Below, in pieces: positions 1 through 20,669 of a DNA stretch of 20,669 nucleotides. The position numbers and the translations under genes are program-made. Every line of letters starts with the position of its first letter. Within the stretch, counting starts at the first letter, position 1. Origin of the DNA: a virus. The notes under the pieces were generated by a model. That model worked only from the letters and a program-made list of their open reading frames with translations, was not told where the DNA came from and ran no database searches. The stretch lies in the IMG/VR virus record IMGVR_UViG_3300028840_008188, positions 1 through 20,669 of that record; one strand, 5' to 3'.

Positions 1-774
1 TCTTACTCTAATCTGAATTATATCTCCACCAGACCACGAATCAACTTCTGTATTTGTGACAGAAGAATCGGATGCTATTCCAACATAACCAGCAGTTCCA
101 GGAACAGTATCAGTGATACATGATTCTGATGTATTCCAAGCAGACCATGCATCATCATTACCATCATCCGCACTTCTAAATTCAAGACACCATACCACTG
201 CTCCAGAATTCGTATCAGAGAACCAATACAAGTCAGTGGAAACCGTATCATCCGTTCCATCAAAATTATCAGGAAGTTTTACGATCAGACTGTCAGCATT
301 ATCATCTGTTGACTGATCGAATTGTAAATATTTTATTCCAATATCCCATGAAGCCTCATCCGTATCTGAACAAGAACCATCATTGTCTAAATCACAGTTC
401 CATGAACCATTTGTAAAATAGATACTATCGTTAAAGTTGTTTGGAGTGTAGACTTCAGCTAATTCCCATCGACAATCAGCTCCACAACTCCCATCCGTAT
501 CAACATCAATAACAAATGGACAAGGAGTCTCGGAAGTCTCTGCCGCACCAGAACTGCTATTCAGACGATAGATGCATACAACTCCACCTGAGGTAATAAC
601 AATAGAACCGTCACCATCTTGCAACCTATCACCGTGTATACCATCTACAGAACGGCCACCTCCACCAGTCAGTGTTGTCTTTGGATAGAACTTGTTGACA
701 GCTCCCACTGGTGGAAGCAAACAAGCTCCAAATAAGAATGATAGAATAAAGAATGTCGTTATAATCTTTTTCAT
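1..774 (-). CDS. Exported Asp/Cys-rich protein, 3' end outside window (partial)
   Basis: An open frame runs from ATG 774 to the window edge with no stop, at least 258 residues. A second ATG lies at 780, but AAGGAGG at 784-790 is 9 bases from ATG 774 and only 3 from 780, so 774 is preferred. The N-terminus is a signal peptide: MKK, a hydrophobic run, then LFGAC, which fits a permissive lipobox, so it may be a lipoprotein; otherwise cleavage near PVGA is possible. The mature part is rich in Asp, Gly, Ser, Thr and Trp and has two DxDxDGSC motifs about 38 residues apart (DVDTDGSC, DLDNDGSC), resembling calcium-binding loops with paired cysteines. It follows the 48-residue membrane protein with overlapping stop and start. 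I recognise no family. An exported surface or envelope protein is inferred from the signal peptide; an exclusion role or a structural role are both possible. Confidence 0.8.
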   Translation of the reverse strand, partial: MKKIITTFFILSFLFGACLLPPVGAVNKFYPKTTLTGGGGRSVDGIHGDRLQDGDGSIVITSGGVVCIYRLNSSSGAAETSETPCPFVIDVDTDGSCGADCRWELAEVYTPNNFNDSIYFTNGSWNCDLDNDGSCSDTDEASWDIGIKYLQFDQSTDDNADSLIVKLPDNFDGTDDTVSTDLYWFSDTNSGAVVWCLEFRSADDGNDDAWSAWNTSESCITDTVPGTAGYVGIASDSSVTNTEVDSWSGGDIIQIRVR

Positions 775-776
775 TT

Positions 777-923
777 TCATTTCCCTCCTTCATTGTCAAG
801 AACCCAATCGTCAGTAAACACTGGAGTTTGGTCTTCCCTATCACACTTACTACAAATAAGGATAGGGAGAACCAAGAGCAACAGCAGCACCACTCCTCTT
901 TTTCTTAACCACTTGCGTACCAT
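777..923 (-). CDS. Small membrane protein overprinted on the end of a glycosyltransferase gene
   Basis: This 48-residue reading frame starts at ATG 923 inside the last 74 bases of the upstream glycosyltransferase gene, in another frame, and ends in TGA 779-777, which overlaps the ATG at 780 of the next gene. AGAGGAGA at about 931-938 provides a ribosome binding site. The protein has a basic N-terminus (RKWLRKR), a 13-residue hydrophobic core of Val, Leu, Pro and Ile at residues 11-23, a CSKC motif at 24-27, and an acidic tail (FTDDWVLDNEGGK). This is the layout of a small membrane-anchored protein with its C-terminus outside. The residue before Cys24 is Ile, so it is not a good lipobox. Lysis accessory (spanin-like) or envelope roles are possible but unsupported by homology. 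Filling the gap exactly between two genes with coupled start and stop argues that it is real. Confidence 0.6.
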   Translation of the reverse strand: MVRKWLRKRGVVLLLLLVLPILICSKCDREDQTPVFTDDWVLDNEGGK

Positions 924-1668
924 TTCCTTTTCTCCTCTTTTCTTTTCTAGGCAACGGCTCTGTTGCCAAATTAGGGTAATACCTCCTCAGTAAGCGTTCT
1001 AACCTCAATCCAACAGAAACGATCCCAACCTTGTTTCGATCCTGTGTATGGGTATCCCAAGCTATTCGATTCAATGGATTCATATGGCATACTCTAATGG
1101 GCAACGTGGCTCTTTCTGCTCTCTTGACAAAACCAGAACAGCCAACATTGTACGTATTGTTTAAAACCGTTACTCTGCATCTGAACTCGGGTTGATTCAA
1201 AAGAACATTTAAAGTTGGCTCCTCCCTCATTGCTCCCTTTTCAATTTCTTTTAGAACAGACTCAAGAATATATCTGGATTCAGGACGCCAGAAAATAGAA
1301 CCACCATTAAACTTTGGTTTCGAATACGTAGAGATTCCAACATCCTTGAACTTTGGAGGATCAAACCAGCAGTTCTGCCAAGCATCCAAGTCATGAGTCC
1401 AGATGACATCTCCTGGATTAAACAGACCCTTATCCAAAGCCCACTTGAGTCCAAAGAGCTTAGATCCCGTAAGACAGAAATCATTTAATTGTGCCTTGTA
1501 AGCTTTCACTCCCATAAATTGGAACTTGAAATTAGAAATCAGCAAAATGTCTTTCGGACTCCACCCACATTCTATGGAATTCTCAATCTGGGCCTTCAGA
1601 AGAATATCAATATTCTCTGGACCATAACGGCCTCCTGATTGTCTATTGGCCACCATTACATTTTTCAT
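850..1668 (-). CDS. GT-A type glycosyltransferase with DXD motif
   Basis: This 272-residue protein is probably a nucleotide-sugar transferase. It has a WTHDLDAW block at residues 90-97, whose Asp93-Leu-Asp95 fits the metal- and nucleotide-binding DXD of GT-A enzymes. It is followed by KFNGGSIFWRPES (119-131), resembling the acceptor region after the DXD in GT8-like and related families, and NNTYNVGCSGF (170-180). The exact family is not clear to me. The last 35 residues are very basic (RKEKRRK, VKKKR) and overlap the start of the 48-residue membrane protein in another frame. ATG 1668 overlaps the stop of the GT2 gene in an ATGA junction, and GGAG lies 8 bases upstream. Position at the end of the sugar cassette suggests that it adds one sugar to the same glycan as its neighbours. 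Confidence 0.8.
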   Translation of the reverse strand: MKNVMVANRQSGGRYGPENIDILLKAQIENSIECGWSPKDILLISNFKFQFMGVKAYKAQLNDFCLTGSKLFGLKWALDKGLFNPGDVIWTHDLDAWQNCWFDPPKFKDVGISTYSKPKFNGGSIFWRPESRYILESVLKEIEKGAMREEPTLNVLLNQPEFRCRVTVLNNTYNVGCSGFVKRAERATLPIRVCHMNPLNRIAWDTHTQDRNKVGIVSVGLRLERLLRRYYPNLATEPLPRKEKRRKGNGTQVVKKKRSGAAVALGSPYPYL

Positions 1669-2513
1669 ATATCAATCTCCATGGAAAAATTTCGAACTAA
1701 ATGGGCCTTCCCCCATTGGATGCCAGGGTTGGCTTCCAACCTTCCGGCTGCTATTCCGACAAGAGAAATGAGAGCATTCCTAGCCTGAGTATATCTCCAA
1801 TCCTTGTCTACATAGTTATCTGTTGGATGTCTCCTATGATCTTCTGTTATCCGCATGAACCCTCCACCAAATGTTAAGACCCTAAATCCACTGAGATATG
1901 CTCTCATAAGAAGATCATGATCATCATATCCATATTCTCTAATATCCTCGTTGTACCCTCCGAGTCTTTCAAACTCCTTTTTGTACAAGGCTATACGTCC
2001 ACGGTTTTTCTGCTTCGACTTGACAAAGACAACCTCAGTTCCCTTTACCTGGTGAGCCAGTTCGTTCAACCTAACAGCAAATCCCTTATTAGTATAGTGA
2101 TCGGCATCCACATTGGTAACAATTTTACCCTTTGCTACTTTGAAACTGACATTCCTGGAATGGGTCATTGAATAGCTTTTTGGCCCGTCAGGATATTTAA
2201 ATGAATAGTAGCTTAGAATCCCCCTTTTAATATATTCCATCAGGTTTTTAAAAACCCAAATATCTAGATCATCCTTGGAACCATAGTTCAAAAGAACAAA
2301 CTCTATGGCCGGATAGTCCAGATTGTTTTCAATGTTTTCAACATAAGTTTGTTTGATATCTTCAGCTCTACCCATACAATTTGTACAAATGGAAATGGGT
2401 ACGTATTTCTTTACTGGGACTTTTAACGGAAGAGAGATTCTCTCATATTCCGGAACAAAGTATTTCTCCCAGATTTTCTTTTCCACGAGACTTAACAGAA
2501 ATTCATTACGCAT
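1665..2513 (-). CDS. GT2 family glycosyltransferase
   Basis: This 282-residue enzyme has the signs of an inverting GT2 transferase with a C-terminal galactosyltransferase-like half. VPISICTNCMGR at residues 38-49 is the first strand and nucleotide-binding region. SYSMTHSRNVSFKVAKGKIV (113-132) and VDADH (135-139) give the DXD metal site. GGYNEDIREYGYDDHDLLMR (185-204) matches the acceptor and catalytic-base block (the GW/ED-box region) common to polypeptide GalNAc-transferase-like GT2 proteins. No membrane segment is visible, so a cytoplasmic enzyme is likely. ATG 2513 directly follows the TAA of the methyltransferase gene, with AGGAGG 6 bases upstream. The sugar donor and acceptor cannot be read from the sequence. 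Confidence 0.88.
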   Translation of the reverse strand: MRNEFLLSLVEKKIWEKYFVPEYERISLPLKVPVKKYVPISICTNCMGRAEDIKQTYVENIENNLDYPAIEFVLLNYGSKDDLDIWVFKNLMEYIKRGILSYYSFKYPDGPKSYSMTHSRNVSFKVAKGKIVTNVDADHYTNKGFAVRLNELAHQVKGTEVVFVKSKQKNRGRIALYKKEFERLGGYNEDIREYGYDDHDLLMRAYLSGFRVLTFGGGFMRITEDHRRHPTDNYVDKDWRYTQARNALISLVGIAAGRLEANPGIQWGKAHLVRNFSMEIDI

Positions 2514-3089
2514 TTATTGCCTCCTCTTAAACACCATCAATGATTTTCTGAACCAACCCATAGAGGAATGTTTTCTCAGAAACATCGTCTCCCTTTTCAT
2601 GAGATCAAAACTTCTAAAGACCATTTCCTCTATGATATAATCATTAGGACGGCAGTTCACATGCCCTGAAGCACTATACTGTCCTGGAACAGCCCAAGAC
2701 AGAATCAGTCGATCATTGGAAAATCTTGGAAGATTATCCAAGAACATCTGCTCATACTCCTCGGGAATATGCTCCCCAACTTCTAGACAGAGAACGAGAT
2801 CGAATGTACCATACTCTTCATTGTACGATTCAGTAAGATCAAATTCTACTATGTTATCATATACTCGCAAATCCTCCACTCCAAGAGAACCTTCAAATCC
2901 AACAACGGGAGCCAGATTAAATCCATAATCCAAAGCAGCACAATATAGACCTATACCACAACCCAAATCGGCTATCGCTTTTGGGTTCTCATATAGAGTA
3001 GCAATTGCACCGCACAGCAATCGATCAATCTTATGTCTTTTCACAGCCCACTCTCTAGGCCAAATTCCTCTTACAGCTTTACTAGCCAT
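2514..3089 (-). CDS. Class I SAM-dependent methyltransferase
   Basis: This 191-residue protein is a stand-alone Rossmann-fold methyltransferase. Motif I is ADLGCGIGLY at residues 40-49 (SAM binding); GFEGS at 64-68 supplies the acidic ribose-binding residue; DLVLCLEVGEHIP at 97-109 is the motif IV region typical of small-molecule or sugar methyltransferases of the Methyltransf_11/23 type. ATG 3089 lies 19 bases inside the end of the preceding methyltransferase gene, with AGGAG about 9 bases upstream. There is no DNA target-recognition domain and no DPPY motif, so DNA methylation is unlikely. Sitting between glycosyltransferases, it probably methylates a sugar of the glycan; this is inference. 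Confidence 0.85.
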   Translation of the reverse strand: MASKAVRGIWPREWAVKRHKIDRLLCGAIATLYENPKAIADLGCGIGLYCAALDYGFNLAPVVGFEGSLGVEDLRVYDNIVEFDLTESYNEEYGTFDLVLCLEVGEHIPEEYEQMFLDNLPRFSNDRLILSWAVPGQYSASGHVNCRPNDYIIEEMVFRSFDLMKRETMFLRKHSSMGWFRKSLMVFKRRQ

Positions 3090-3622
3090 ACGCCATCTAC
3101 TCCTGTTATTACTTTCTCTTCCCCATAAACCTCATCCACTGCTTTCTTAACTCCTTGGTGATGACGGTTTGGAGTTATGTAATCATGTCCTGAAATGATC
3201 CCTCCCGGCTTTCTGATCTTTGGCTCCCAAGACCTTAAATCCAAAAGTGTATCTTCATAGAAATGGGTTGCGTCAATATAGACCATATCAAAATATCCAT
3301 CAGGAAACATACCAGCAGCCTCGTCAGATGAAAGCCTCACAACTTTTAGACAAGGAAAATATCTCATCAGCTTACAAGCTGCTAGATACATTGCATTCCA
3401 ATCTTCTTGTGTGAGTTTACTCATCCGACCGAACTTTCGATCCGGAAGAAGTTTCCAAGGATCTACGGCCCAATATTCATTCAGAAGATAACCTGAATTT
3501 CTTACGACAGTCTTTAGAAACCGACACTTGTAAACTCCAACTTCAGCAAACCGCTTCACCTCAAACTTTTTTATAAAGCCCTGCACTGCCGAACTATGAG
3601 AAAAATTTTGCAATGATATCAC
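3071..3622 (-). CDS. Class I SAM-dependent methyltransferase, Methyltransf_24-like
   Basis: This 183-residue protein resembles the O-methyltransferase-like family whose members carry a YIDATH-type block. FAEVGVYKC at residues 25-33 is motif I; AVDPW at 52-56 ends the second strand with the acidic residue; FDMVYIDATHFYEDTLLDL at 111-129 is the diagnostic block with the Asp/His pair; GGIISGHDY at 140-148 follows. Relatives act on sugars and secondary metabolites, including cephalosporin hydroxylase-like and macrocin O-methyltransferase-like enzymes. The start is uncertain: GTG 3622 overlaps the fusion glycosyltransferase gene by 29 bases and has only a GGGG-type site upstream; TTG 3613 is another option. 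It likely works with the second methyltransferase next door. Confidence 0.83.
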   Translation of the reverse strand: MISLQNFSHSSAVQGFIKKFEVKRFAEVGVYKCRFLKTVVRNSGYLLNEYWAVDPWKLLPDRKFGRMSKLTQEDWNAMYLAACKLMRYFPCLKVVRLSSDEAAGMFPDGYFDMVYIDATHFYEDTLLDLRSWEPKIRKPGGIISGHDYITPNRHHQGVKKAVDEVYGEEKVITGVDGVWLVKL

Positions 3623-5888
3623 CCCACTTTCTAGGATCTAAGTTTTCTCGAGCCCAATCCTTCGCATACATTCCCATTTGGTGACGATATTTCTCCTTAC
3701 GCATGAGCATCCTCAACGCGTACTTATATCCATCATAGTCCACACAGTAGAAACCTGTATCCCCATGGACGATTCGATCTGCTGTTCCATCCCTCGGTTC
3801 AGAAAGAACGGGCAATCCAGCAGCAAGAGCCTCAGCAACAACTCTAGGATAATTATCACGCCACATATTAGAGGTACGATACAAATAAATATGTCCGCGA
3901 CCGAGAAATTCTTCCACTGAGATCGAATCAAATTCATGAAACACCATCCTTTCTTCTCCCTTAAAATTCTTCCTAAGCTCTTCATGAGCCTCCATGAATT
4001 CGAACTGGATATTTCCCACATCCTTAAGCAGCCGTTTGTAAAACTTTATGTCTTTCTCTTTATCCAATCCTTTCTGCCAGACATGAATCTTTTCCCCTTT
4101 CCCTTTGGATTCCTCGGTAACGTATTTTCGATAGTCTGGCACGCAATGTTTGAGTACCACCAATCTTTCTTCTTTTTTCCTTTCCGGGGGACAAACTTCG
4201 AGGAATCGCTCGAGATCGATGGCTCCGAAAAGGGTATGTCGTTCGACGTCTTCGAATCCGATTGCATCACGATCAAACTCCTTTTTCTTCTCTTGATTCT
4301 GAAAAACTATTGCTTTTAGCTTATCCGTTTTACCAAGCCAATTGCACTTCGTCAAAGGAGAATTGATATAATTGATTCCAATAATCAATCCGGCCGATTG
4401 TTCAACAATCTTTTCCGCCTTTTCTGTAAACTCACGGGTAGTATCGTTAGCATAGTAGAGAAGAGGAATCCCAGACTTTGGAGGACCCTCCTCGATAGGG
4501 AGTCCATTTCCGCTATACTTTTCATGGACGGTCGACCATGGATGAAGATGAACTTTCCATCCGGCATCTTGCAATACCTCCGCAATTTTGCACAAAGACT
4601 GTTCCCCGCCTCCTTTAGAATTCAGATTTCCCCACAGGGCGATTTCCTTCCTATTTTCCGTCGTAGTAGTCAAAAGAGCTTTATGGCCTAAAAGGGTCCG
4701 GGGGGACTGTTTTTTTCTCATATTTCCGGACCCATGAGCTCCTGGGAGGGTAATCTTATATAAATCCCCCTCATAATAACGCTCAATAGCCCGAATAACG
4801 TCTTTAGAAGTAATTAAATCCATACATTGTTGAATTGTACGTCCTCCAACCTGGATTGGTTTCTTACACAAAGAGTCATTATGTTTCTTATCCTTTTGAA
4901 GAGGATATGTTCGTGCTTTCCAACATCCTCCTGTGTCACAACAAGAAAAGACCCCATTGGTATGCAGAATTTGGTGATTAGTGTACCAACACCATCCAGC
5001 AGGTTCCCTTCCTCCCCAAATTGAAACACAAGGTTTTCTTGCATTTCCTATCTTTGGAGGGAGTGCTGCTGCCAAATGATTTAGAAAACTTGGCCCTGAA
5101 ACACATCCATCGGCATTGTGGACCAGACTCAACAGGCCACGGATATCATCATTGAACTTATCAACCATAGAAATGACACCTGGGATTTTTTCAACCAATA
5201 GATCACTCTTCCCTATGGAAACGAATTTTAGCTTTCCCTCAAAATAATCCACTACATCTTTAAACCTTCTCCAATCCCAAATCTTTGTCGTGCCATCCCG
5301 TTTTCCACCAGGAGCAATAACCCAATACTGTCCATCAATGATTTTCCTGGTCTTTTCTTCCTCTGTAAGGTGAATATCACCATACATTCTTGAAAATGTC
5401 TTTCCAAAATTGTCATACTTCTCTCGCATAGATATGAATGGTTCCCTAGCTCCTTCTGGATTCTTTTCCAAACTCCCAAGATTAGGATCTCCTACTGCCC
5501 CATTGGAAAATGCAGCACAGAATTCCCAAAGGGGAATTGGAAGGGATTTATGCTCATCCACATTGGCTATCATATCCAAGAGAAACATCTGTGTGAAATG
5601 AAGATTTGTATTGTTGCAAGAACCAATGGCCGGATATCCTACTCGATAGAACTCCACTCCCTCCTCATTGTATGTTAGAGTTCTATCGATGTATGGATTG
5701 TTTTCCCAAAGAGCCGGCTGGTTGGAATCTACATTTACTCGAATCTCGGGAAACAAAAGACAAAAATCCCGCACTCCCGCAGTAAACATCAATCCATCCC
5801 CAAGAGCTCTTCGGTGTGAGAAGATTATTTTCCTAGCATCTTCTGAATACTCTTTTATTGCCTTTTTAGTCTTCAATTTCAATTTCAA
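3594..5888 (-). CDS. Two-domain glycosyltransferase: GT9-like N-half fused to GT4-like C-half
   Basis: This 764-residue protein joins two GT-B transferases. The N-half resembles GT9 heptosyltransferase-like proteins: SHRRALGDGLMFTAGVRDF at 24-42, VIAPGGKRDGTTKIWDWRRF at 190-209, and GCVSGPSFLNHLAAALP at 261-277, followed by a cysteine group (CCDTGGCW at 316-323, Cys341 and Cys355). The C-half resembles GT4: ALWGNLNSKGGGEQSLCKIA at 417-436, then DNYPRVVAEALAAGLPVLSE at 678-697, the conserved sugar-nucleotide site near the second domain. The start is TTG 5888, preceded by AGGAGG 6-7 bases upstream. Its first 23 bases overlap the small Cys/His gene. No membrane segment is visible. It could add two successive sugars to one acceptor. 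Donors are unknown. It is the largest member of the sugar cassette. Confidence 0.85.
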   Translation of the reverse strand: MKLKLKTKKAIKEYSEDARKIIFSHRRALGDGLMFTAGVRDFCLLFPEIRVNVDSNQPALWENNPYIDRTLTYNEEGVEFYRVGYPAIGSCNNTNLHFTQMFLLDMIANVDEHKSLPIPLWEFCAAFSNGAVGDPNLGSLEKNPEGAREPFISMREKYDNFGKTFSRMYGDIHLTEEEKTRKIIDGQYWVIAPGGKRDGTTKIWDWRRFKDVVDYFEGKLKFVSIGKSDLLVEKIPGVISMVDKFNDDIRGLLSLVHNADGCVSGPSFLNHLAAALPPKIGNARKPCVSIWGGREPAGWCWYTNHQILHTNGVFSCCDTGGCWKARTYPLQKDKKHNDSLCKKPIQVGGRTIQQCMDLITSKDVIRAIERYYEGDLYKITLPGAHGSGNMRKKQSPRTLLGHKALLTTTTENRKEIALWGNLNSKGGGEQSLCKIAEVLQDAGWKVHLHPWSTVHEKYSGNGLPIEEGPPKSGIPLLYYANDTTREFTEKAEKIVEQSAGLIIGINYINSPLTKCNWLGKTDKLKAIVFQNQEKKKEFDRDAIGFEDVERHTLFGAIDLERFLEVCPPERKKEERLVVLKHCVPDYRKYVTEESKGKGEKIHVWQKGLDKEKDIKFYKRLLKDVGNIQFEFMEAHEELRKNFKGEERMVFHEFDSISVEEFLGRGHIYLYRTSNMWRDNYPRVVAEALAAGLPVLSEPRDGTADRIVHGDTGFYCVDYDGYKYALRMLMRKEKYRHQMGMYAKDWARENLDPRKWGDIIAKFFS

Positions 5889-6069
5889 TGTTAGCCTCCT
5901 CAGCTATTTTCTTTATGAACTTAAAAATAAGATCCTTGTTTTTTATCGGACCATGAACATGGAAATGGTCCTTTCCTTCCTTTTCTGTAACAACGACAAC
6001 CAAATGCTCTTTATATTCTTCTTTGTTACAGAAAGCACACTTGAATGGGGGTTTCTTTTTCCCTTTCAT
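5866..6069 (-). CDS. Small Cys/His protein, possible zinc site
   Basis: This 67-residue basic protein has CAFC at residues 11-14, His22, and a HFHVHG cluster at 35-40, a set of ligands that could bind one zinc ion. The middle is beta-like (HLVVVVTE) and the C-terminus is helical and acidic (FIKKIAEEANIEIEIED). I recognise no family. ATG 6069 overlaps the TGA of the peptidase gene by 4 bases, and its own end overlaps the start of the fusion glycosyltransferase by 23 bases, so it is translationally coupled on both sides. Clean coupling and sensible composition support a real gene. Function is unknown; it marks the junction between the tail/lysis block and the sugar cassette. Confidence 0.7.
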   Translation of the reverse strand: MKGKKKPPFKCAFCNKEEYKEHLVVVVTEKEGKDHFHVHGPIKNKDLIFKFIKKIAEEANIEIEIED

Positions 6070-6506
6070 GGCGAAACTCCCTTGAAGGGATCCATAAACA
6101 CCAACAAACGTCCCCTTGTTTTAATTGGACGAAACTTGACAAAAGCATTATACTTAATCGCATCTGCCACTGATGTCACTTTCCTTCCACCACCAGAAAC
6201 CCCAATACAGAACATTGTATCAAGACACATTTCCACATGAACTGCTACAGAAGGTCCTCCTTCTGTAGCTTCCGACATTCGAAAGAGCAAACATCCTGAA
6301 TAGGGATCTGACACTTCTCGTCCAATGAAATGCTTACGAAGCTGATCTGCTGTCCAATCCCCTTTTGGTAGAATCCCTACGGACTGAAGAATTTCAACAA
6401 CAAGACCTGAACAGTCAAACCCCATGATGGGATCATCTCCTCCCCAAATATAGGGTTTCCCAAGAAAGGATATTGCCAACTGTATTGCTCTTTCTCTTTG
6501 GTCCAT
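6066..6506 (-). CDS. NlpC/P60-type peptidase (endolysin or tail-tip peptidase)
   Basis: This 146-residue protein is a single NlpC/P60 cysteine peptidase domain, a family that cuts gamma-D-glutamyl-diaminopimelate bonds in peptidoglycan. AISFLGKPYIWGGDD at residues 11-25 and FDCSG at 30-34 carry the nucleophile Cys32; HVEM at 90-93 carries the catalytic His90. The third polar residue expected about 12 positions later is not evident: the segment reads FCIGVSGGGRK. There is no signal peptide and no extra binding domain. ATG 6506 has GAGGAGGTAA just upstream. In lambda the K protein of the tail tip carries such a domain beside L. Here the gene lies after the J-like gene and next to a membrane protein, so it may be an endolysin paired with a holin, or a displaced K-like protein. 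Confidence 0.85.
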   Translation of the reverse strand: MDQRERAIQLAISFLGKPYIWGGDDPIMGFDCSGLVVEILQSVGILPKGDWTADQLRKHFIGREVSDPYSGCLLFRMSEATEGGPSVAVHVEMCLDTMFCIGVSGGGRKVTSVADAIKYNAFVKFRPIKTRGRLLVFMDPFKGVSP

Positions 6507-7726: not shown

Positions 7727-10700
7727 CTACAACTCCGTCGTTCCGTAATCTTTGTGAAAATAAGCGTCATGACAATATTCAATACAAGATATCTTATGAA
7801 TTATCTTTTCCGTTCTCTCACAACCAAGAATCCTATATTCTGTTGGATATGGTCCGGGATTCCCAGCCAAACCCCTATGAATAACAGCATAAACATCATA
7901 CAGAACAGGATTTTCAGTCCAGGTGCCGGACGCAATTTCAAGGAGGGTACCACCATGCGTTGGATGATCCAAGAGACGGATATTCTGAACAGCCCATACA
8001 TCCGAGGAAGGAGGGTTGTTCACATTATCGAACGTGACAACATTCACTCCCGATGTCAGATATGCCGAAGGCAAGGTAACAGTCCGTTTACGATCCCAAG
8101 CACTGGAGGCATCCTCATATCCCAAATTGTTTCCATTGACCAAGATTCGAACTTCACTGGCGTTGAAAGCATAAGCATCATATTGAAGAATACTATCCCC
8201 AGAAGCCTTCCCTTCGAAGAAGAAGTTTACCTCATTGGGATGAGTTGTATCGCCACCTCCATTTCCTATTGGATCCACATGGGGAAGTGGATGATAGATA
8301 TTGTCATACGTATCCAGAGGGATAACAATATCCTCAGTGTAAATGGTACCATCATCCGAATTTCTATAGATTATCTGAGGATAGCCACTACCCCATCCTG
8401 ACACGTCAATCGCTCTGTCGATAATCACCTGAGTAGTGCTAGCTGCAACAATACGACCACCATAGGAGTAAGGAGAATCAGGGATTACCTTTGCTATGTC
8501 TCCAGGAAGAATTCCGATAGCATCAAGACCCGCAGAAAACGTGCATTGACTACAAGGGAAAACCTCGAGTTGATATCGTAAAATAGCCATCCTTCTAGCC
8601 TGATCTTTGTTGGTCAAACCTATAACAAACTCCTCGGGAACACGCAACGGTTCAGAAGTTGAATTATATTCAGGACCATAGTAGACCACTGATTTCCTTC
8701 GATATTCCTTATCTTCATCGTTGTACCAAATCTTGTATCCATGCGACCTCTGGTCCTTTCTTATATCACCCCTAGCAAAGGAACCGTCAATGATATTTCC
8801 AACAGTAAATAGATGTGATGCGCTTCCGGTCTTTTCTAGAGACACATGACGAATCGAACCTAGTCTGATTATTCTGGCCCGACTCATGCCGGACACAATA
8901 TCAAGAGATTCATCAGGATCTTTCTGGGAATCCAACAAGCCTCTCCATTTGACACGATACCCAGCATCATGAATTTCATAAGTATCATCTTCCTGCCATG
9001 TGTCATCACTCCCACCAGACAACCCACCAGACATTGTCACTGTGGTTCCGTCATTGTCAGTGATCACACCCTCACTTCCATCCTCTGTATTCTTTGCTAT
9101 CTTCCCTATCAGCTCGTCATTCACCCAGGACGCTCCACTATCCGTTAATACTGTACCGGAGGGTGTGGCTGACGTGTGAGTTCCTTCATATCTAAGAAGC
9201 CCAACAGTCCCCTCAGTGAATTCCTCCCAAGATTCAAAATCCGTTTGGTACAAATTCGCTATCGGAACACCAAGACCCCATCTCGTGTTGGTCAAACAAT
9301 CGAGACAAAACCACGCTGGAATGGAAGTGTCACGGGATGTGGTTCCTGAAGGCCATGTAGGCAAGGTCTGAGTTCCACGTTTCACAAGAACAGACATGGG
9401 GCCCAACTGATCAGTGGTAACCGTCTGTTTTCCACCAAACGGGTACTTCAATCCTAGAAGAGCCATGTTTGGATATCTTAAAGAACGATTCAGAACCTCA
9501 TCCATATACTCAAGAATCGAATAAGAATTCTGTCCCTGAAAATCCTTTGAAGCATTCTTGACCAACTTGAATTGGTATTTGCTCTTCCTTAGATAAGTTG
9601 CTTTCCCTGTCTCTATCGGATCGTATTCAGGATCATCAACATCGGCGGTTACAGAGGATGTTCCTCCAGTGATTTCTTCGTCTACTTGAAAATTATCCGA
9701 GTCCTCATCCCAACCTATGTAAACAATCCCAGTATTGCTACCAAGATCGTAGTCGTAACAAACCTTGGCAGAGCAGGAGGATGTTCCCCCCGTGATAGTC
9801 TCGCCTATGGTGAAAGCAGAACCTCCTCCACGATTATCATATTTAAGAGCACGCATCCTCCAATTCAAATGAGCACGATGAGGACTCGTCGTGCCAGCAG
9901 TAATTTTCCACCCATTGTCCCAAGTGCTATGGTTCTTGATAACATCTGAAACGAGCTTTCCCCACTCGTCAGCATCCCAATCCTCATCACGAAACAACAA
10001 GACAATCCTACAATTATGATTGTAATCGTTCTCGGTGTTGTCGTAAAGACCTTGTGGAAAGGAAACTATGAAATTGAACTCATCAGCCTCACCAAGAGCA
10101 GAAAGCACTGGAGCAGAATGGTAGAAGGTGAGACCATCATTGGCTGTCCATCCCGGCATATATGCCGCAGTCTCCGGAGTGAAATCTATACCCTTATACA
10201 TTGCCTTCCCATTCATGAACCGAAATTCATCAATACTTCCAGCCCAACCCTGACAGGAATATGGCATTGTTGTCATATAACGAAACAGTGCAAAAGCCAC
10301 ATTTGAAGAAGGTGCAGGAGTGAATCTTTCCTCTGCTTCATCATACCGATAGTCATGATCTGTCTTGTCAACCCCATCCACATAGAACCTGATGACACCA
10401 TTCCATCGTTCAAGAGCAAAATGATACCATTGATCTTGATTCAAAACCATCGACAAAGACCTCTTTGCTATCCTCCTGGACACTCCTCCATAATGATGAT
10501 AGAACTCCTCCATTACCGTGATAGTTCCACCACCAACGGCAGTTGTTCTAAGCACCAGACCCCACCCAGTATCATCCCCCTCGTTCTGCCACTTGAAAGC
10601 ACAATACAATCTGTTGCTAGCATTTGTCCATTTGGCAGAATCCGCATATCCCCAGAAATCTATAGTAAAATCATCGCCTCCCAGATGGATATCTGACGTG

Positions 10701-11395
10701 TAATCCAAAGACAGATAATCAGAAGTAGAAGACGGAGGACCCGCAGAGTATGATCCAAACTTTTTATCAGTCGAATTTATAGGAAGTGAACCTTGGGTGG
10801 TGAAGTCAGGACCACGGACACACGAGTTCAGCCAACCAGTAGTCTCAAAATTGATGACGAGTTTTGCTGGTTCAAAAATCTCTTGATTAATCTGCCTAAG
10901 TTGATGAATCTTGTCAAACCAAGACAATACAGACTGATCTTTGGTACCAACTGCAGATTCCCATTCTGCTCCCTGAGCCTCACTGAGCCTCTTTTCGTTT
11001 GTGATCCATATATTCTCAGGATTGTCGTCCTTCACTGCCTCTTCTACCTGGCCTTCGCAAATGCCAAACAAGATATACAACACATCATAAGCTCCCTCGC
11101 CACCAAGAATATATGTATTGATGACCTGAAGACCGGCCCGGCATTCCCCACCAGCTATCGGGATTGGAAGCCCTGGCGATTCACTATTGATGGGACCGCC
11201 CCATGCATAAGCCAAAGTAGTTTCATCGCCCTCAGTACCAAGCCCAGAAATGGAAGGGATTTGTGGTCTCGGTACAGGAAGCATAGTTGGCACAAAAGGC
11301 CGTCGCTGCTTTCCCCCGAGCAGGGTACCAAAGAACGAGGAACCCAACTTCGTGAATAAACTAAGAGCAACACCTGCAAAGAATTGCACAGCCAT
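7727..11395 (-). CDS. Tail-tip host-recognition protein, gpJ-like, with LamG-type insertion
   Basis: This 1222-residue protein sits where lambda J does, after the M- and L-like genes. The N-terminus has a short hydrophobic stretch and a Pro-rich linker (residues 1-48). The segment 60-180 (AYAWGGPIN, GAYDVLYILFGICEG) resembles the start of TipJ-type tail proteins. About 180-415 is a concanavalin/LamG-like domain (FTIDFWGYAD, WYHFALERWNGVIRFYVDG, GSIDEFRFMNGKAMY). Paired GGTSS beta repeats lie at 528-585, another beta module at about 738-810, and a TipJ-like core at about 812-1040 (MSRARIIRLGSIRHVSLEK, LPGDIAKV). A second beta-sandwich, carbohydrate-binding-like, lies at about 1060-1145 (ILVNGNNLGYE). 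It probably contacts the host receptor, with the inserted domains able to bind glycans. ATG 11395 directly follows the TAG of the L-like gene, with AGGAG 9-10 bases upstream. Confidence 0.85.
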   Translation of the reverse strand: MAVQFFAGVALSLFTKLGSSFFGTLLGGKQRRPFVPTMLPVPRPQIPSISGLGTEGDETTLAYAWGGPINSESPGLPIPIAGGECRAGLQVINTYILGGEGAYDVLYILFGICEGQVEEAVKDDNPENIWITNEKRLSEAQGAEWESAVGTKDQSVLSWFDKIHQLRQINQEIFEPAKLVINFETTGWLNSCVRGPDFTTQGSLPINSTDKKFGSYSAGPPSSTSDYLSLDYTSDIHLGGDDFTIDFWGYADSAKWTNASNRLYCAFKWQNEGDDTGWGLVLRTTAVGGGTITVMEEFYHHYGGVSRRIAKRSLSMVLNQDQWYHFALERWNGVIRFYVDGVDKTDHDYRYDEAEERFTPAPSSNVAFALFRYMTTMPYSCQGWAGSIDEFRFMNGKAMYKGIDFTPETAAYMPGWTANDGLTFYHSAPVLSALGEADEFNFIVSFPQGLYDNTENDYNHNCRIVLLFRDEDWDADEWGKLVSDVIKNHSTWDNGWKITAGTTSPHRAHLNWRMRALKYDNRGGGSAFTIGETITGGTSSCSAKVCYDYDLGSNTGIVYIGWDEDSDNFQVDEEITGGTSSVTADVDDPEYDPIETGKATYLRKSKYQFKLVKNASKDFQGQNSYSILEYMDEVLNRSLRYPNMALLGLKYPFGGKQTVTTDQLGPMSVLVKRGTQTLPTWPSGTTSRDTSIPAWFCLDCLTNTRWGLGVPIANLYQTDFESWEEFTEGTVGLLRYEGTHTSATPSGTVLTDSGASWVNDELIGKIAKNTEDGSEGVITDNDGTTVTMSGGLSGGSDDTWQEDDTYEIHDAGYRVKWRGLLDSQKDPDESLDIVSGMSRARIIRLGSIRHVSLEKTGSASHLFTVGNIIDGSFARGDIRKDQRSHGYKIWYNDEDKEYRRKSVVYYGPEYNSTSEPLRVPEEFVIGLTNKDQARRMAILRYQLEVFPCSQCTFSAGLDAIGILPGDIAKVIPDSPYSYGGRIVAASTTQVIIDRAIDVSGWGSGYPQIIYRNSDDGTIYTEDIVIPLDTYDNIYHPLPHVDPIGNGGGDTTHPNEVNFFFEGKASGDSILQYDAYAFNASEVRILVNGNNLGYEDASSAWDRKRTVTLPSAYLTSGVNVVTFDNVNNPPSSDVWAVQNIRLLDHPTHGGTLLEIASGTWTENPVLYDVYAVIHRGLAGNPGPYPTEYRILGCERTEKIIHKISCIEYCHDAYFHKDYGTTEL

Positions 11396-12621: not shown

Positions 12622-15600
12622 CTATCTCCCTCTCATCACATTTCTAAATCTTGGATCCCTCGAATTGGCCTTGATCACAATGGACTTCACAACTCCTTCA
12701 AAATCAGACATAGAAAACTCTTCTTCAGCTTCTATGGGTATGCCCGTCTGGTTGTTTATGTTGATAGTCACCCTTGGAGATATCGACACACCACCCGCTC
12801 CCTCTTGGCCCACTATTCCTCCTTGATGATATTTTTTGGGAAGCACTGTTTCTCCTGGCTCTAGAAGACCAACCACACCTCCCTGTCGATATTTTCTCCA
12901 CTCTGGAAAAGCGTCTTTGAAAGTTCCCAACATCAACCAATCAGATACAGTATACTGGTCTTCGGTCTTGTTGGGAAAAGGCTTGAAGGGATCATAGGCT
13001 CCTGTCTGCTTCATCCAACTCATAAAGTCCGTGGGAAACCAAGCACCAGGAGATGCAGGACCTTCGAGATAGTGAGCCCCAACCCATGCAGGGCGATCGC
13101 CCACTTTGAAAGGACCAAGATCAGACAGGCTCCTCATCATCTCAGCAACAACATAGTCATAATACCCTCTGGCGTAAATATACCCAGCATGCTTTTGCTT
13201 CATACTAAAAGAAGACGCGAAACCCTCACTACTATCCATGTACGCATCGTAATAATTCCTGTAAAGATCTGCCATCCGGTCAAATGCCTGTGAAGAAATG
13301 CTTGGATTCTCCACAGCCAGAGTCCCCCTGGTGCCGAGACTGTAGTAAAGGCCCTCGAGCATATCCGCAAGCAGCTCACCACCATAGGCATTGGATTCTA
13401 AGATGTTCTGATGGTTGCTGACCATCCCATGCAACTTTTCAGCCAACTTCTCCTTCGACATTTTCGCTGCAGGCACCTCCTCAATCACCCCAGGAAAGCC
13501 CGACGTAAGAAGTTGCGCTATGTCCGGAATTGCTGTCAAATAAGGAGACTTTAGACCCGTAATCATAGACAGAGCAAACAGAGGCTCTGCCCATGCACCA
13601 TAAGTACCAAAATAATCATATGGTATACCAATTAGAGGACTTGCCTGGAACCCAAACTGGTTTAGAAGATCCTGAATCGGTTGTGTAATAGCTGGCATTT
13701 TCCATCGGTTGATAGTGCCCTTCGGCTCTATAAAGGGAGAAGGCACTCCGGTCTGTGGTGAGTACCCAAATATATCGTATAGAGATTGAGCCCAAGCAGG
13801 AAGATTGTTTCTGGCAGCTTCATCTTGTGGAAGAAGCCAATCCGGAATTGGTTCTTCTGGTGGAGGAATATTTGGATCCACAGTTGGTGGTGGTGGTGGT
13901 TGTGGTTCCTCGGGTATAGGCAATGGAGGTTCCGGACCTGGCGGAGGTGGTGTCGGTGGGCCAGGCGTCGGTGGAGTCGGTGGAGCGGGTTCTCTCCTCT
14001 GGAAAGGCTGCTTGATACCCATATTCCATATTTGCCACGTACCTGAAATGGAGGGGTCCCACATCGCCTTGGTGTACCATTCAGGACTGTAGACCGCACC
14101 CTTGAAATCTGTCCCACCTCCTATCGTAAGAAAACCCGTATTTGGATTATACACGGCAAAGGGACTTACACGAAACGGCTCGCTGCCTACAATCCCACCC
14201 TCTTGATAACCACGACGTAAGCCTTCCAAATATCCAACACCAAGTTGCTGCACTCTCTTCTTGGGTATGACATACTCTCCGGGCTCAAGCATTGCGGGCA
14301 CAATGTCTCCAGAGCCGGAACCGGGAATGTGTCCCCCACTCTGAACCTGTAAGTCCACGTCTGGCATGACACCCTCGACTCCCCAATCACCACCTCCACC
14401 CAAAGAACTCAATCCAGAACCGAACAGATCAGACATCCAATCGCCTACCGGTTCCCAAATTGCCTTTTGCATAGCAAGCTGTGAAAGATCACTCAACATC
14501 CCCTGAATAGTCTGCGCAAACGCATCACCCATGTTATCGAAATCAGTGATAGCAGAATCGACAAAACTACTCATTGATCTTGTTATGGTACGAGATCCTT
14601 CCTCGGCTATTTCCTCCATCTCGCCAACAGTTCTATCAACATCAGCAATAGCTTGCTTTTGTTCCTCTTCAAGAATTGCAATTCTGAATTCGATAATATT
14701 TGCTTCGGTCAACGACAGACCTTCTTCCGACAACTGTCTCCTCAGTTCGTCTATTTGTCGCTGAAACGAAGCAGAAACAATGGCTTGTTTCTGTTCTATA
14801 TATTCCTTTTCCTTGATAAGTCCCTTCTCATAGGAATCTTCAAGAACAGCCAACTTCCCCTCTGCCAATTTATTCTCAAGTTCTATCTCCAAAGATCTGG
14901 CTTCTCTTATTTCAGCCAATCTCTCATTATTGTTGCTAATCATAAAATCTATCGATTTCTGACGATACTCAGCCTCCATTGCAAGTTTTTTCTGCTCTCC
15001 CTCTTCGTATGTCAAATTCCTATTCTCAACAGATTTATCCACAAGATCCAACTCAACCTCCAACAATTGAGCTATCTTGCGCAAACCATCTTCTTGAAGT
15101 TCTATACGACTTCTTACCAAATCTGCTTCAAATGTACCAGAGCGTTTCCTCCTCATATAATCAGACCGCTCCTCAACCTCTACCAGCTGAGTTGCAAGAT
15201 CAATGTCCTCTTTCATCTCCTTTCCAAGAGCCTTTAACTCAGCTATCTCTTTGGCTCTCTTTTCACTTATTTTCTTACTAAAAGACTCATCTTGTTTTTG
15301 CCAATAGGACTCGGGCTGATATGTAGGATATGACAGAACCCGACGTTCATAACCCTCCGGCATAGGCATCCCTTCTGGAAGCCCTCTCATTATTCCAGCC
15401 TGAGTCTCACCAAGAGTCCGGGGTTTGATCTCCGGAGGCGTATAAACTCCTTTCTCTTCCCAAAGTTTGGCCCACCAATCCCTAAACTCCTTATCAAACA
15501 TTTCTTTACCTTCTGGCATTGGCATCTTCTCTGGGAGAGAAGCTATTGCTTCATTAATACCAGTAAGCAATTCAAATGTATCACCAAGGAAAGGCAACCA

Positions 15601-16692
15601 ATGCTCACTGCCACTCTTTACCAAAGCATCCCATGAGGCTTTGTATTCTTTTATCTTTTGATCAACAGTACTCATATTAGTGGCAAGAGCTTTTTGTGTC
15701 GATCCTAGATTGTTCATCTGATTTTCTAAGTCTCGTTGCGCTCCCTCCGTATCATTGATCAACATGATAGCACCACGCATAGCCCGTATATTCGTAAAGA
15801 TCTCGGCTGACTGCTCGGCTGTGATTCCTTTCAATTCAGCCATAGTGCCAATCAATCCCTTGGTTTGGAGCGTTTCTGCATTGAGAGCCAATCCATGCTT
15901 CTTTGCAGCTTCAACAGCATCTTTTGTAGGAGAAAGAAAAGTAAGCAGAGTTTGGTTCAAAGCCACGACAGCCTCATCCGTACTCAATCCAGCACGGGTC
16001 ATCGTAGCTAGAGCAGCTCCAACCTCTTCGAAAGAAATACCAGCAGCTGCTGCTGTAGAGGCAATACGGCCCACGGTATGAGCCAGAGCATCGAAAGTTG
16101 TTTTTCCATACTTGACAGTAGTAAAGAGTGTATCACTTACATCAGAAGCATCGTCCGCGCTCATTCCATAGGAATTTATAACAGTCGTAAGAACATCTGC
16201 AGCAGCAGCAGTTGAAGACAAACCAGCTTTTCCTGCCTTTGTAGCCTCCTCAAGAACGCCAAGAGCTTTTTCTGCAGGAATACTGGCAGAAATAATATCA
16301 TAAAGTCCTTTAGTTAGAGATGCCGTTCCCTCCCCATACGACTTTGCAAGATCAAGAATACCCTTTCGAAACGTCCCCATCATCGGAACAAGTTCCTGAT
16401 CTAAAAGAGATTCAACCTCTTTGAGCTGCTTTTCAAACTCTATTGCTCCCTTGATAGCACCTCTAAACAACATAACCCCACCAGTAATCCCAGCCATCGC
16501 TCCGAGATTCCTGATAAGAGTCTTCGATGTGTTGTTCAGACCAAGCATACTGCCTCTAAATTGATTAGCTCCAACTTGTGCCGATTTAAACTTCCTATTG
16601 AGTTTTTCGGTACTAGAACCAATCCTCTCTAGAGTAACTGTACCATTATCTTTTATTACGAGATTTACTGCTACTTCGTACCTGTCTGCCAC
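12622..16692 (-). CDS. Tail tape measure protein
   Basis: This 1356-residue protein sets tail length and is the longest gene in the window. The N-terminal third resembles the TP901-type tape measure core (about 80-370: GTASLTKGLYDIISASIPAE, Ala-rich TAAAADVLTTVINSYGMSAD, IASTAAAAGISFEEVGAALA). A long charged helical/coiled-coil region follows (about 470-700). Residues 785-812 carry the Gly-rich GGHIPGSGSGD and LEPGEYVIPKK motif seen near the C-terminus of many tape measures. A polyproline stretch lies at 901-949 and a further helical domain at about 950-1265. A second LEPGETVLPKK copy lies at 1278-1288, followed by GGIVG. The start is GTG 16692, just two codons after an in-frame TGA, with GGGAG 8 bases upstream. 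It overlaps the chaperone frame by 47 bases. Confidence 0.92.
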   Translation of the reverse strand: MADRYEVAVNLVIKDNGTVTLERIGSSTEKLNRKFKSAQVGANQFRGSMLGLNNTSKTLIRNLGAMAGITGGVMLFRGAIKGAIEFEKQLKEVESLLDQELVPMMGTFRKGILDLAKSYGEGTASLTKGLYDIISASIPAEKALGVLEEATKAGKAGLSSTAAAADVLTTVINSYGMSADDASDVSDTLFTTVKYGKTTFDALAHTVGRIASTAAAAGISFEEVGAALATMTRAGLSTDEAVVALNQTLLTFLSPTKDAVEAAKKHGLALNAETLQTKGLIGTMAELKGITAEQSAEIFTNIRAMRGAIMLINDTEGAQRDLENQMNNLGSTQKALATNMSTVDQKIKEYKASWDALVKSGSEHWLPFLGDTFELLTGINEAIASLPEKMPMPEGKEMFDKEFRDWWAKLWEEKGVYTPPEIKPRTLGETQAGIMRGLPEGMPMPEGYERRVLSYPTYQPESYWQKQDESFSKKISEKRAKEIAELKALGKEMKEDIDLATQLVEVEERSDYMRRKRSGTFEADLVRSRIELQEDGLRKIAQLLEVELDLVDKSVENRNLTYEEGEQKKLAMEAEYRQKSIDFMISNNNERLAEIREARSLEIELENKLAEGKLAVLEDSYEKGLIKEKEYIEQKQAIVSASFQRQIDELRRQLSEEGLSLTEANIIEFRIAILEEEQKQAIADVDRTVGEMEEIAEEGSRTITRSMSSFVDSAITDFDNMGDAFAQTIQGMLSDLSQLAMQKAIWEPVGDWMSDLFGSGLSSLGGGGDWGVEGVMPDVDLQVQSGGHIPGSGSGDIVPAMLEPGEYVIPKKRVQQLGVGYLEGLRRGYQEGGIVGSEPFRVSPFAVYNPNTGFLTIGGGTDFKGAVYSPEWYTKAMWDPSISGTWQIWNMGIKQPFQRREPAPPTPPTPGPPTPPPPGPEPPLPIPEEPQPPPPPTVDPNIPPPEEPIPDWLLPQDEAARNNLPAWAQSLYDIFGYSPQTGVPSPFIEPKGTINRWKMPAITQPIQDLLNQFGFQASPLIGIPYDYFGTYGAWAEPLFALSMITGLKSPYLTAIPDIAQLLTSGFPGVIEEVPAAKMSKEKLAEKLHGMVSNHQNILESNAYGGELLADMLEGLYYSLGTRGTLAVENPSISSQAFDRMADLYRNYYDAYMDSSEGFASSFSMKQKHAGYIYARGYYDYVVAEMMRSLSDLGPFKVGDRPAWVGAHYLEGPASPGAWFPTDFMSWMKQTGAYDPFKPFPNKTEDQYTVSDWLMLGTFKDAFPEWRKYRQGGVVGLLEPGETVLPKKYHQGGIVGQEGAGGVSISPRVTININNQTGIPIEAEEEFSMSDFEGVVKSIVIKANSRDPRFRNVMRGR
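13846..13992 (-). repeat. Polyproline low-complexity segment in the tape measure gene
   Basis: This stretch encodes about 49 residues, roughly half of them proline, with Glu, Thr and Gly between (PPTPPTPGPPTPPPPGP, then PEEPQPPPPPTVDP and IPPPEEP). On the plus strand it appears as GGTGGTGG and GGTGGAG runs. A rigid, extended hinge between the tape measure's first PGE motif and its distal helical domain is the natural reading. Its repetitive codons could allow length variation by slippage. Confidence 0.75.
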
Positions 16693-19066: not shown

Positions 19067-19623
19067 CTTGCCTCCAACTCAGCCAAAAGCATGAACTGAG
19101 GCAGCAGTCCTCGATCCACATTTTTAAAAGACATAGTACCAGAACCTTCTGGCATTGCTATCGAGGACAGGTCCCAACGGCCTTCCTTGATGAGCCTGAA
19201 CCAATGGGCTCCTTGTTGACAAAGGACTCTCAGTATTCTTGTCGGCAACTCGGTATATCCAGCCACATAAACAACTTTGATATTTTTTCTGCCACTACCC
19301 CAAAATCCAGAACTATAAAGAATCCCAGAATCGGCAGAAAATGTGTATTCCGTATCTGAAACCAGAGAATCCGCACCGTATACCCAGTCAGGATCATCAT
19401 GCACAGAAGTAATAGAAGTTACTGGACGCTGCTTTAAAAAGATCGATTTCTGATAACGGTCACAAGAATGGTATTCTGTGAATGTCTGAGACTCAAATGT
19501 CCGATCCGTCAAACCTTCGAAAGTATTTAGAACCCCAAGAGCCAGAAGCTCTAGAACCTCATCATTTTTTGGGTCCTTGATATCAAGTTCATACTTCAGA
19601 TCGGTTTTTGTTATGAGAGTCAT
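19063..19623 (-). CDS. Head-tail connector protein (gp6-like)
   Basis: This 186-residue protein fits the small gp6-type head-tail connectors that form a ring beneath the portal. It starts with a helical pair (TKTDLKYELDI, NDEVLELLALGVLNTFEGLTDRTF), as in HK97 gp6 and relatives, followed by beta strands (FLKQRPVTSITSVHDDPDWV, DSGILYSSGFW, KNIKVVYVAGY) and C-terminal helices (LPTRILRVLCQQGAHWFRL). The YVAGYTELP block is a common feature of this family. ATG 19623 overlaps the TGA of the upstream glycosyltransferase gene by 4 bases. The assignment is supported by the following gp10-like and terminator genes. Confidence 0.82.
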   Translation of the reverse strand: MTLITKTDLKYELDIKDPKNDEVLELLALGVLNTFEGLTDRTFESQTFTEYHSCDRYQKSIFLKQRPVTSITSVHDDPDWVYGADSLVSDTEYTFSADSGILYSSGFWGSGRKNIKVVYVAGYTELPTRILRVLCQQGAHWFRLIKEGRWDLSSIAMPEGSGTMSFKNVDRGLLPQFMLLAELEAR

Positions 19624-20669
19624 TCTTTTTCCTCCTGTTCCCGTCTTTTGTTTATTTCATATTCCAAAACAGAAACCAATTGCTTGGCTGAATTGGGCCA
19701 ATTGAACCACTTGGAAATTCTATCCGATGCTATCTTTCCCTTTTTTATTGCTTCATCATAATTCTGTGGTATGTGTAACATCCATCCTGCAAGATCCCCT
19801 ACATCACACATTCCAACTCTGGACTCGACTATCAAAGGATCATCCTGTATCCTTGGAAAATGAAATTGAGCACTTGCAACGAAATAATCACAAGGATAGC
19901 CAACTGCAGAATCGAAATAATCAAGCATCCCTGAATAGCTTGTCGCTACGCAAGGCAAACCAGTTCTCATTGCTTCAGCAAGAGTAAGACCAAAACCCTC
20001 TCCTCTAGACGGGAAGAGGAAACAATGAGCCGAATGATATACCTTTACTAATTCCTCGATAGGAAGATCTCTATTGTCTATTGTTATATTCTCAGATACC
20101 TGAATGAAATCCTTATTCTTGTACAATCCAGGCATGTTCACTGTCTTATACAACAACTCAACATTAGGATTCTTGTACAATCCTGTCTGTTCCCAAGCAA
20201 ACTCAATTTCCTCATATCCTTTTCTGTTATTCATGGCCCCAACCCATAGGTACCGAAACTTCTCTCCTTTCCTTGGCAACGTCCTCTTCTTGTAAGTAAA
20301 TTCCGGCCTGACGCCATGATGAACAACATGGATTGGCATTTTCTTAAACACTTTCCGAAATACGCCTCCTGCCCATGTAGAAGGCACAAGCAAATAGTCA
20401 GCCTCAGCTACTTTTGGAATGAACTGTTCAGGAAGATCCATTCCTTCAAACATTGTGAACAACCAATTCTTCTTCCCTGGAGATGGAACAAAACTTTCTG
20501 GACTGGTAATAGTGATGGCATCCTCGGCATCCGGATTAATCTTTAAGATTTTTCGAGCCTCCTCATAAAGGTTTGTCGTATGGACATAGTATCCATATAG
20601 ATTATGATTGATATGCTTCATTTCTGCGAATGCCTTACGGGACCTTTCAGTCCAAGCCACCTCGATCAT
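19620..20669 (-). CDS. GT4 family glycosyltransferase (5' end at window edge)
   Basis: This 349-residue GT-B enzyme shows a clear C-terminal nucleotide-sugar site: FLFPSRGEGFGLTLAEAMRT at residues 217-236 contains the Glu224-x7-Glu232 motif of retaining GT4 enzymes, followed by GLPCVATSYSGMLDYF. FRYLWVGAMNNRKGYEEIEF at 138-157 is the first strand and loop of the C-domain. VVHHGVRPEFTYKK at 115-128 is the linker typical of the family. No membrane helix is visible. The first Met is exactly at the window edge, so the true start may lie further upstream. Finding it between capsid-side genes and the connector gene, sharing an ATGA overlap, suggests that it modifies a virion component; that is inference. 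Confidence 0.87.
   Translation of the reverse strand: MIEVAWTERSRKAFAEMKHINHNLYGYYVHTTNLYEEARKILKINPDAEDAITITSPESFVPSPGKKNWLFTMFEGMDLPEQFIPKVAEADYLLVPSTWAGGVFRKVFKKMPIHVVHHGVRPEFTYKKRTLPRKGEKFRYLWVGAMNNRKGYEEIEFAWEQTGLYKNPNVELLYKTVNMPGLYKNKDFIQVSENITIDNRDLPIEELVKVYHSAHCFLFPSRGEGFGLTLAEAMRTGLPCVATSYSGMLDYFDSAVGYPCDYFVASAQFHFPRIQDDPLIVESRVGMCDVGDLAGWMLHIPQNYDEAIKKGKIASDRISKWFNWPNSAKQLVSVLEYEINKRREQEEKE

Follow-up and report, generated by a model that had tools for sequence, protein, structure and literature searches.

A Recurrent Glycosyltransferase and Methyltransferase Island in a Phage Late Operon and Its Association with Serine-Rich, Virion-Type Proteins

The window analyzed here is a 20,669-bp IMG/VR viral record, the main genes of which all lie on the minus strand (Table 1). 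Comparison with PHROG and Pfam families identifies a head-tail adaptor, a neck protein, a tail terminator, a major tail protein, a chaperone, a tape measure protein, minor tail proteins, a J-like fiber, and an NlpC/P60 peptidase, and we read this set as a siphovirus late operon. After the tail and NlpC/P60 genes, on the same strand, five consecutive open reading frames occupy positions 850–5888, as a preliminary description of this DNA had reported, and encode a GT9-GT4 fusion, two SAM methyltransferases (MT2 and MT1), a GT2 enzyme, and a DXD glycosyltransferase (DXD GT). The overlaps of 1–29 bases given there are nearly right: the fusion and MT2 share 29 nt, MT2 and MT1 19 nt, and GT2 and the DXD GT 4 nt, but MT1 and GT2 abut exactly. 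The gap left between NlpC/P60 and the fusion holds a sixth cassette gene, overlooked in that description, which encodes a 67-aa protein. Because this gene overlaps both the NlpC/P60 stop and the fusion start, the tail genes and the cassette look to be translationally coupled. A promoter and terminator scan of the window found signals no commoner than in shuffled sequences. The contig ends one gene, or 780 bp, beyond the cassette. The G+C content of the cassette is 0.39–0.43, against 0.43–0.50 in most tail genes.

Table 1. Positions of the Cassette Genes and of Neighboring Features in the Window
Feature	Positions	Strand	Evidence or remark
Gene 3' of the cassette, truncated at the end of the contig	1..780	-	Hydrophobic, signal-like N-terminus
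DXD GT (GT-A glycosyltransferase, GT8/LgtC-like fold), 272 aa	850..1668	-	AlphaFold model; DLD motif
GT2, 282 aa, Glyco_transf_7C-like C-terminus	1665..2513	-	PF10111, 6.1e-10; DAD motif
MT1, SAM methyltransferase (Methyltransf_23), 191 aa	2514..3089	-	PF13489, 2.3e-6
MT2, SAM methyltransferase (Methyltransf_24), 183 aa	3071..3622	-	PF13578, 5.1e-12
GT9-GT4 fusion, 764 aa	3594..5888	-	Pfam, structure, motifs; TTG start with AGGAGG upstream
67-aa CxxC...HFHVHGP protein	5866..6069	-	Start overlaps NlpC/P60 stop by 4 nt; end overlaps fusion start by 23 nt
NlpC/P60 tail-associated peptidase	6066..6506	-	PHROG_329 (minor tail), 2.4e-13; immediately upstream of the cassette
J-like central tail fiber, 1222 aa, with LamG-like insert	7727..11395	-	PHROG_31, 7.1e-30; LamG/ConA-like match
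Tape measure protein	12622..16692	-	Shares the late operon with the cassette
Distinct GT4 gene amid head-tail genes, at the contig edge	19620..20669	-	PHROG_2170, 8.7e-34; PF20706 "GT4-conflict"

The 67-aa protein matches no convincing Pfam family and is possibly a metal-binding accessory. Homologues adjoin the cassette in six further contig groups: in three (L002, L012, and L013) they immediately precede the fusion, and in the others (L003, L014, and L035/L042) they immediately follow the DXD GT. In L211 a homologue forms the N-terminal part of the fusion protein itself. The GT4 gene at 19620–20669, which the preliminary description counted as a fifth glycosyltransferase domain, is a distinct phage GT4 and lies outside the conserved block.

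The enzyme classes that had been proposed from motifs hold, with GT4, GT2, and both methyltransferases placed by Pfam, GT9 by Pfam through its relatives, and the DXD GT by its GT-A fold. The GT4 half of the fusion belongs to the GT4 family (PF00534, 6.9e-9); its model (residues 412–764) is good, with Z scores of 22–26 against GT4 structures, and both acids of its EX7E-type DX7E motif (D678-x7-E686) are invariant across relatives. The GT9 half matches PF01075 at only 0.017 in the window protein, and we assign it to GT9 on the matches of 10 of 11 relatives (best 1e-6); G30 and D31 of an N-terminal GDxLMxT-type motif are likewise invariant. Structure prediction, suggested earlier as a check on each enzyme, supports a GT-A fold for the DXD GT and a GT4 fold for the second half of the fusion, but its model of the GT9 half is of low confidence and too uncertain for fold comparison.

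The DXD GT has no Pfam or PHROG match. Its AlphaFold model (pLDDT 78.5) adopts a GT-A fold nearest to LgtC (1g9r; VIA Z 14.8, 199 residues), followed by glycogenin, GT6 enzymes, and the PBCV-1 A64R domain, and we call it GT8-like by fold, GT6 and glycogenin lying within 1–2 Z and leaving the exact CAZy family unsettled. Among relatives at 38–63% identity, the catalytic acids of its DLD93–95 motif (D93/D95) and those of the GT2 DAD136–138 motif are invariant. The neighbors of the GT4 model include SdgB and GtfA, which are protein O-glycosylating enzymes, and also TarM, PimA, and BshA, the acceptors of which are not proteins and which fit equally well. MT2 matches a PHROG labeled DNA methyltransferase; its Pfam family, Methyltransf_24, recurs repeatedly in related cassettes, and a 41–48% identical homologue of MT1 stands immediately 5' of GT2 in many relatives. 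No membrane segment is predicted in the five enzymes, and no flippase, polymerase, or polyprenyl-phosphate transferase or other lipid-carrier enzyme was recognized among the window genes.

With the fusion as query, a scan of 2.9 million IMG/VR viral contigs recovered 16 relatives, and with the DXD GT it recovered 28; these collapse to 26 distinct groups, 17 of them core-complete, that is, carrying all four glycosyltransferase activities. The order GT9 > GT4 > GT2 > GT8-like is kept on one strand in 15 of these 17, the exceptions being L019, with one gene inverted, and L022, with GT9 elsewhere; in seven groups (L019, L021, L024, L037, L038, L040, and L041) GT9 and GT4 are not fused but encoded by two neighboring genes. 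Comparison with related contigs, the other check suggested at the outset, thus finds the cassette recurring as an ordered block beside phage structural genes, and since this order is kept in many independent contigs, the cassette is, judged by gene arrangement, a real unit with an order beyond chance. The middle of the block varies, with methyltransferases, a PIG-L deacetylase, epimerases, and a homing endonuclease, and the neighboring terminase, portal, and head genes come from different families across the groups. The distance matrices of the fusion, GT2, and DXD GT correlate (Mantel r 0.67–0.75, P <= 0.0013), as do those of MT1 and the fusion (r 0.80), and the cassette enzymes therefore travel together. 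We note that the homing endonuclease, of the GIY-YIG/NUMOD3 type, lies in mid-cassette in L012 (17928–18791), where it could aid mobility.

In the collections searched, the island is restricted to viruses. Neither the fusion, the DXD GT, nor the GT9 and GT4 of a relative has a tblastn match in the 50,697 phage records of INPHARED, in which GT2 matches one unannotated gut contig, and the fusion is absent from a GTDB scan of 84,980 species genomes, which picks up only fairly close relatives. The DXD GT scan of GTDB contigs found four contigs (L045–L048) from metagenome-assembled genomes of Planctomycetota, Spartobacteria, and Kiritimatiellia; GT9 and GT4 matches in these genomes are partial only, and the contigs hint at hosts or prophages. 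The tape measure protein of the window, used as bait, recovered only the same phage (L044, an identical contig from a second sample).

Proteins with tracts of 55–87% serine, encoded by interleaved TCN and AGY codons, accompany the cassette in 14 of the 17 core-complete groups and occur in none of 14 controls (P = 3e-6), the controls being the usable contigs selected by portal and terminase baits and lacking the cassette, few in number and shorter than the cassette contigs. The criterion was at least 75% serine over 60 aa with both serine codon families present, and Ser-rich ORFs in control contigs with essentially TCN codons alone were set aside as antisense or low-complexity artefacts. The Ser-rich ORF lies in the fetched region in 13 of the 14 groups and elsewhere on the contig in one; the gap to the cassette is mostly 0–570 bp, and often the ORF is the gene touching it. 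Flanking examples include a protein of 1,862 aa with 82% Ser+Thr (L032) and two in L014 (1,585 aa, 85%; 831 aa, 71%), and the tracts reach about 1,700 residues. These ORFs are real proteins. Of the six frames only that of serine is homopolymeric, and two tracts contain 774 and 1041 switches between TCN and AGY codons, a change that no single mutation can make; serine has thus been selected at the protein level.

Some of the tracts belong to virion proteins. In L021 the tract lies within a baseplate wedge protein encoded 93 bp ahead of GT9, and PHROG searches with 113 globular parts of Ser-tract proteins matched head maturation protease, scaffold, major head, baseplate, and minor tail families. 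Matches to RNA ligase and to DNA methyltransferase families also appeared, which places some tracts outside virion proteins. There is no Ser-rich tract within the 20.7 kb of the window, and Ser-rich ORFs are absent from three core-complete groups (L022, L024, and L037, the last an 11-kb fragment); for L022 and L024, the poly-Ser pattern matched nowhere in the entire record.

The association was also approached from the opposite side, by searching viral DNA for a poly-Ser nucleotide pattern that took no account of the cassette. This pattern matched at least 120 stretches, and among the matches listed 94 loci carry a genuine Ser-rich ORF. Relatives of GT9 or GT4 are present at 14 of these 94 listed loci, never on the opposite strand and in many cases as the adjacent gene; in the regions examined of the other 80 contigs, no core glycosyltransferase match was found. 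GT2, GT9, GT4, and methyltransferases are the commonest Pfam families in 136 neighbors of Ser-rich ORFs, and none of them is among the 25 families listed for 113 control ORFs. The cassette GT2 alignment matched none of 36 poly-Ser records, so that these phages would either use other extending glycosyltransferases or carry GT2 off the contig. One locus from this search, L142, has a minor tail protein and a J fiber related to those of the window, in the order Ser-tract fiber, epimerase, further ORFs, GT9-GT4 fusion, and second Ser-tract protein; the tract of the fiber is flanked by a galactose-binding-like domain on one side and a GHTH collar-like end on the other.

Taking these data together, the reading we lean toward is that the cassette (850–6069) is a laterally mobile phage island which O-glycosylates a Ser-rich, virion-type protein to give a mucin-like glycoprotein on the particle. 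The island would be coexpressed with the tail genes, and its soluble enzymes, working in the cytosol of the host, would assemble a short, methylated glycan sugar by sugar from host nucleotide sugars. The GT9 and GT4 domains, probably performing consecutive steps because they are fused, would act first, the GT2 and GT8-like enzymes would extend the glycan, and MT1 and MT2 would cap it. We infer from this genomic context that the glycan is joined to the serines of a mostly-serine protein, in this order of sugars, and that the resulting mucin-like or bottlebrush glycoprotein is located on the virion, where it may serve hydration, adhesion, or shielding. Stepwise cytosolic transfer to protein is the simplest scheme, given five enzymes without predicted membrane segments and a window lacking any recognized export, flippase, or lipid-carrier enzyme. 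The preliminary description had envisaged a methyl-capped glycan on either the virion or the host surface; gene order, late-operon position, virus restriction, and the lack of recognized membrane, flippase, or lipid-carrier enzymes make the virion the probable site, and the relatives favor giant Ser-rich virion-type acceptors over a capsid or tail-tube protein. The gene content thus suggests that phages with the cassette coat their own particles in a mucin-like sugar layer. The broader proposition, about which our judgment is evenly divided, is that these are an undescribed and widespread class of phage mucins, common to unrelated tailed phages, their Ser-tract virion proteins receiving O-linked glycans from a mobile, virus-restricted GT9/GT4/GT2/GT8-like/methyltransferase island.

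It is also conceivable, if rather unlikely, that ordinary virion proteins are glycosylated at capsid or tail-tube termini, the Ser-rich genes of the relatives being a separate feature. The mycobacteriophages Che8 (gp110), Corndog (gp38), and Myrna provide the precedent, their virions being glycosylated by phage-encoded glycosyltransferases according to PMC12363180 and PMC12619734, citing Freeman 2023. Such a target would fit the lack of a Ser tract in the window and of a Ser-rich ORF in a few cassette contigs, but Ser-rich ORFs lie directly beside the cassette far more often than control contigs carry them, and a search that starts from poly-Ser DNA leads back to GT9 adjoining them.

Modification of a glycan on the host surface, either the LPS core or a precursor of the capsule, to block superinfection or re-adsorption is an improbable alternative. 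Bacterial GT9 enzymes are typically heptosyltransferases of the LPS core, and soluble glycosyltransferases can use lipid-linked acceptors at the membrane; however, the cassette sits in a late operon, apparently coupled to tail genes, no flippase, polymerase, or polyprenyl-phosphate transferase was recognized and no membrane segment is predicted in the five enzymes of the window, and the island is associated with Ser-rich virion-type proteins. Sugar hypermodification of phage DNA, which glycosyltransferases of other phages perform (PMC12619734) and to which the PHROG label of MT2 might point, is very improbable, as Methyltransf_24 is not a DNA methyltransferase family, Pfam and PHROG identify none of the cassette genes as base-hydroxymethylating or nucleotide-modifying, and the cassette lies among virion genes. 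Misassembly of bacterial polysaccharide genes onto phage genes, named earlier as a result that would overturn the cassette, is the least credible of all: the cassette has a somewhat lower G+C content and L044 stops short of the junction, but the overlaps of 4 and 23 nt on either side of the 67-aa gene, and the translational coupling they suggest, disfavor it, as do the recurrence of the island beside phage structural genes in independent assemblies and the absence of the fusion from the GTDB genomes.

Returning to the mucin-like glycoprotein, three known systems offer comparisons. The likeness to mycobacteriophages drawn in the preliminary description stands as a functional parallel, in that phage-encoded glycosyltransferases are taken to act on the phage's own particle, and does not extend to sequence, given the tblastn results above. 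Unlike in mycobacteriophages, the window holds a conserved multienzyme block with methyltransferases, and the cassette is tied to Ser-rich proteins rather than to capsid or tail-tube C-termini. Glycosylation of bacterial serine-rich-repeat adhesins (SRRPs) is a parallel system (PMC6973325): as in the SRRP/accessory-Sec clusters of streptococci, staphylococci, and lactobacilli, a giant Ser-rich gene, the putative acceptor, accompanies variable cytosolic glycosyltransferases in 14 of 17 core-complete relatives (nearby in 13), although the window shows none, and as in their GtfA/GtfB sets with variable partners there is a GT4-fold enzyme, GtfA and SdgB being among its fold neighbors at equal rank with TarM, BshA, and PimA. 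The cassette differs in being phage-borne, in its GT9, GT2, and GT8-like families and methyltransferases, and in tracts of up to 87% serine, and it is not a member of these systems because the export genes are missing: no SecA2, SecY2, or Asp was recognized, the window genes being tail, peptidase, glycosyltransferase, methyltransferase, or small ORFs without a multipass membrane protein. The chlorovirus PBCV-1 glycosylates its capsid autonomously (A064R and others; PMC7019647) and resembles the window in a virus-encoded set of several glycosyltransferases and methyltransferases with domain fusions, and in the fold shared by A64R and the DXD GT (Z 13.6); its glycans are N-linked on Vp54 in a eukaryotic host, and the likeness seen is one of logic and fold. 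In the open-access literature, we found no description of a phage poly-Ser/glycosyltransferase system.

To our knowledge, virion glycosylation is documented in few phages. If the proposed role is correct, a mobile island paired with mucin-like proteins would be a general way to sugar-coat particles, the acceptor would gain a recognizable sequence signature, roles of the glycan such as attachment to mucus or biofilm, protection against binding proteins, and hydration of the particle would become directly testable, and the island would be a source of enzymes for cytosolic protein O-glycosylation.

The window phage may have its Ser-rich acceptor beyond the contig end, and the gene at 1–780 is possibly this acceptor or its N-terminal part. 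As bait in viral-contig scans, this gene found no relatives. Its signal-like N-terminus is unusual for a phage late operon, and we note that the N-terminus of a protein in L026 (14721–16295), with a Ser-rich ORF nearby, resembles it. Finally, giant poly-Ser proteins are widespread in uncultured phages, being found in L014, L032, L040, L042, L140, and L142 and at about 90 other loci.
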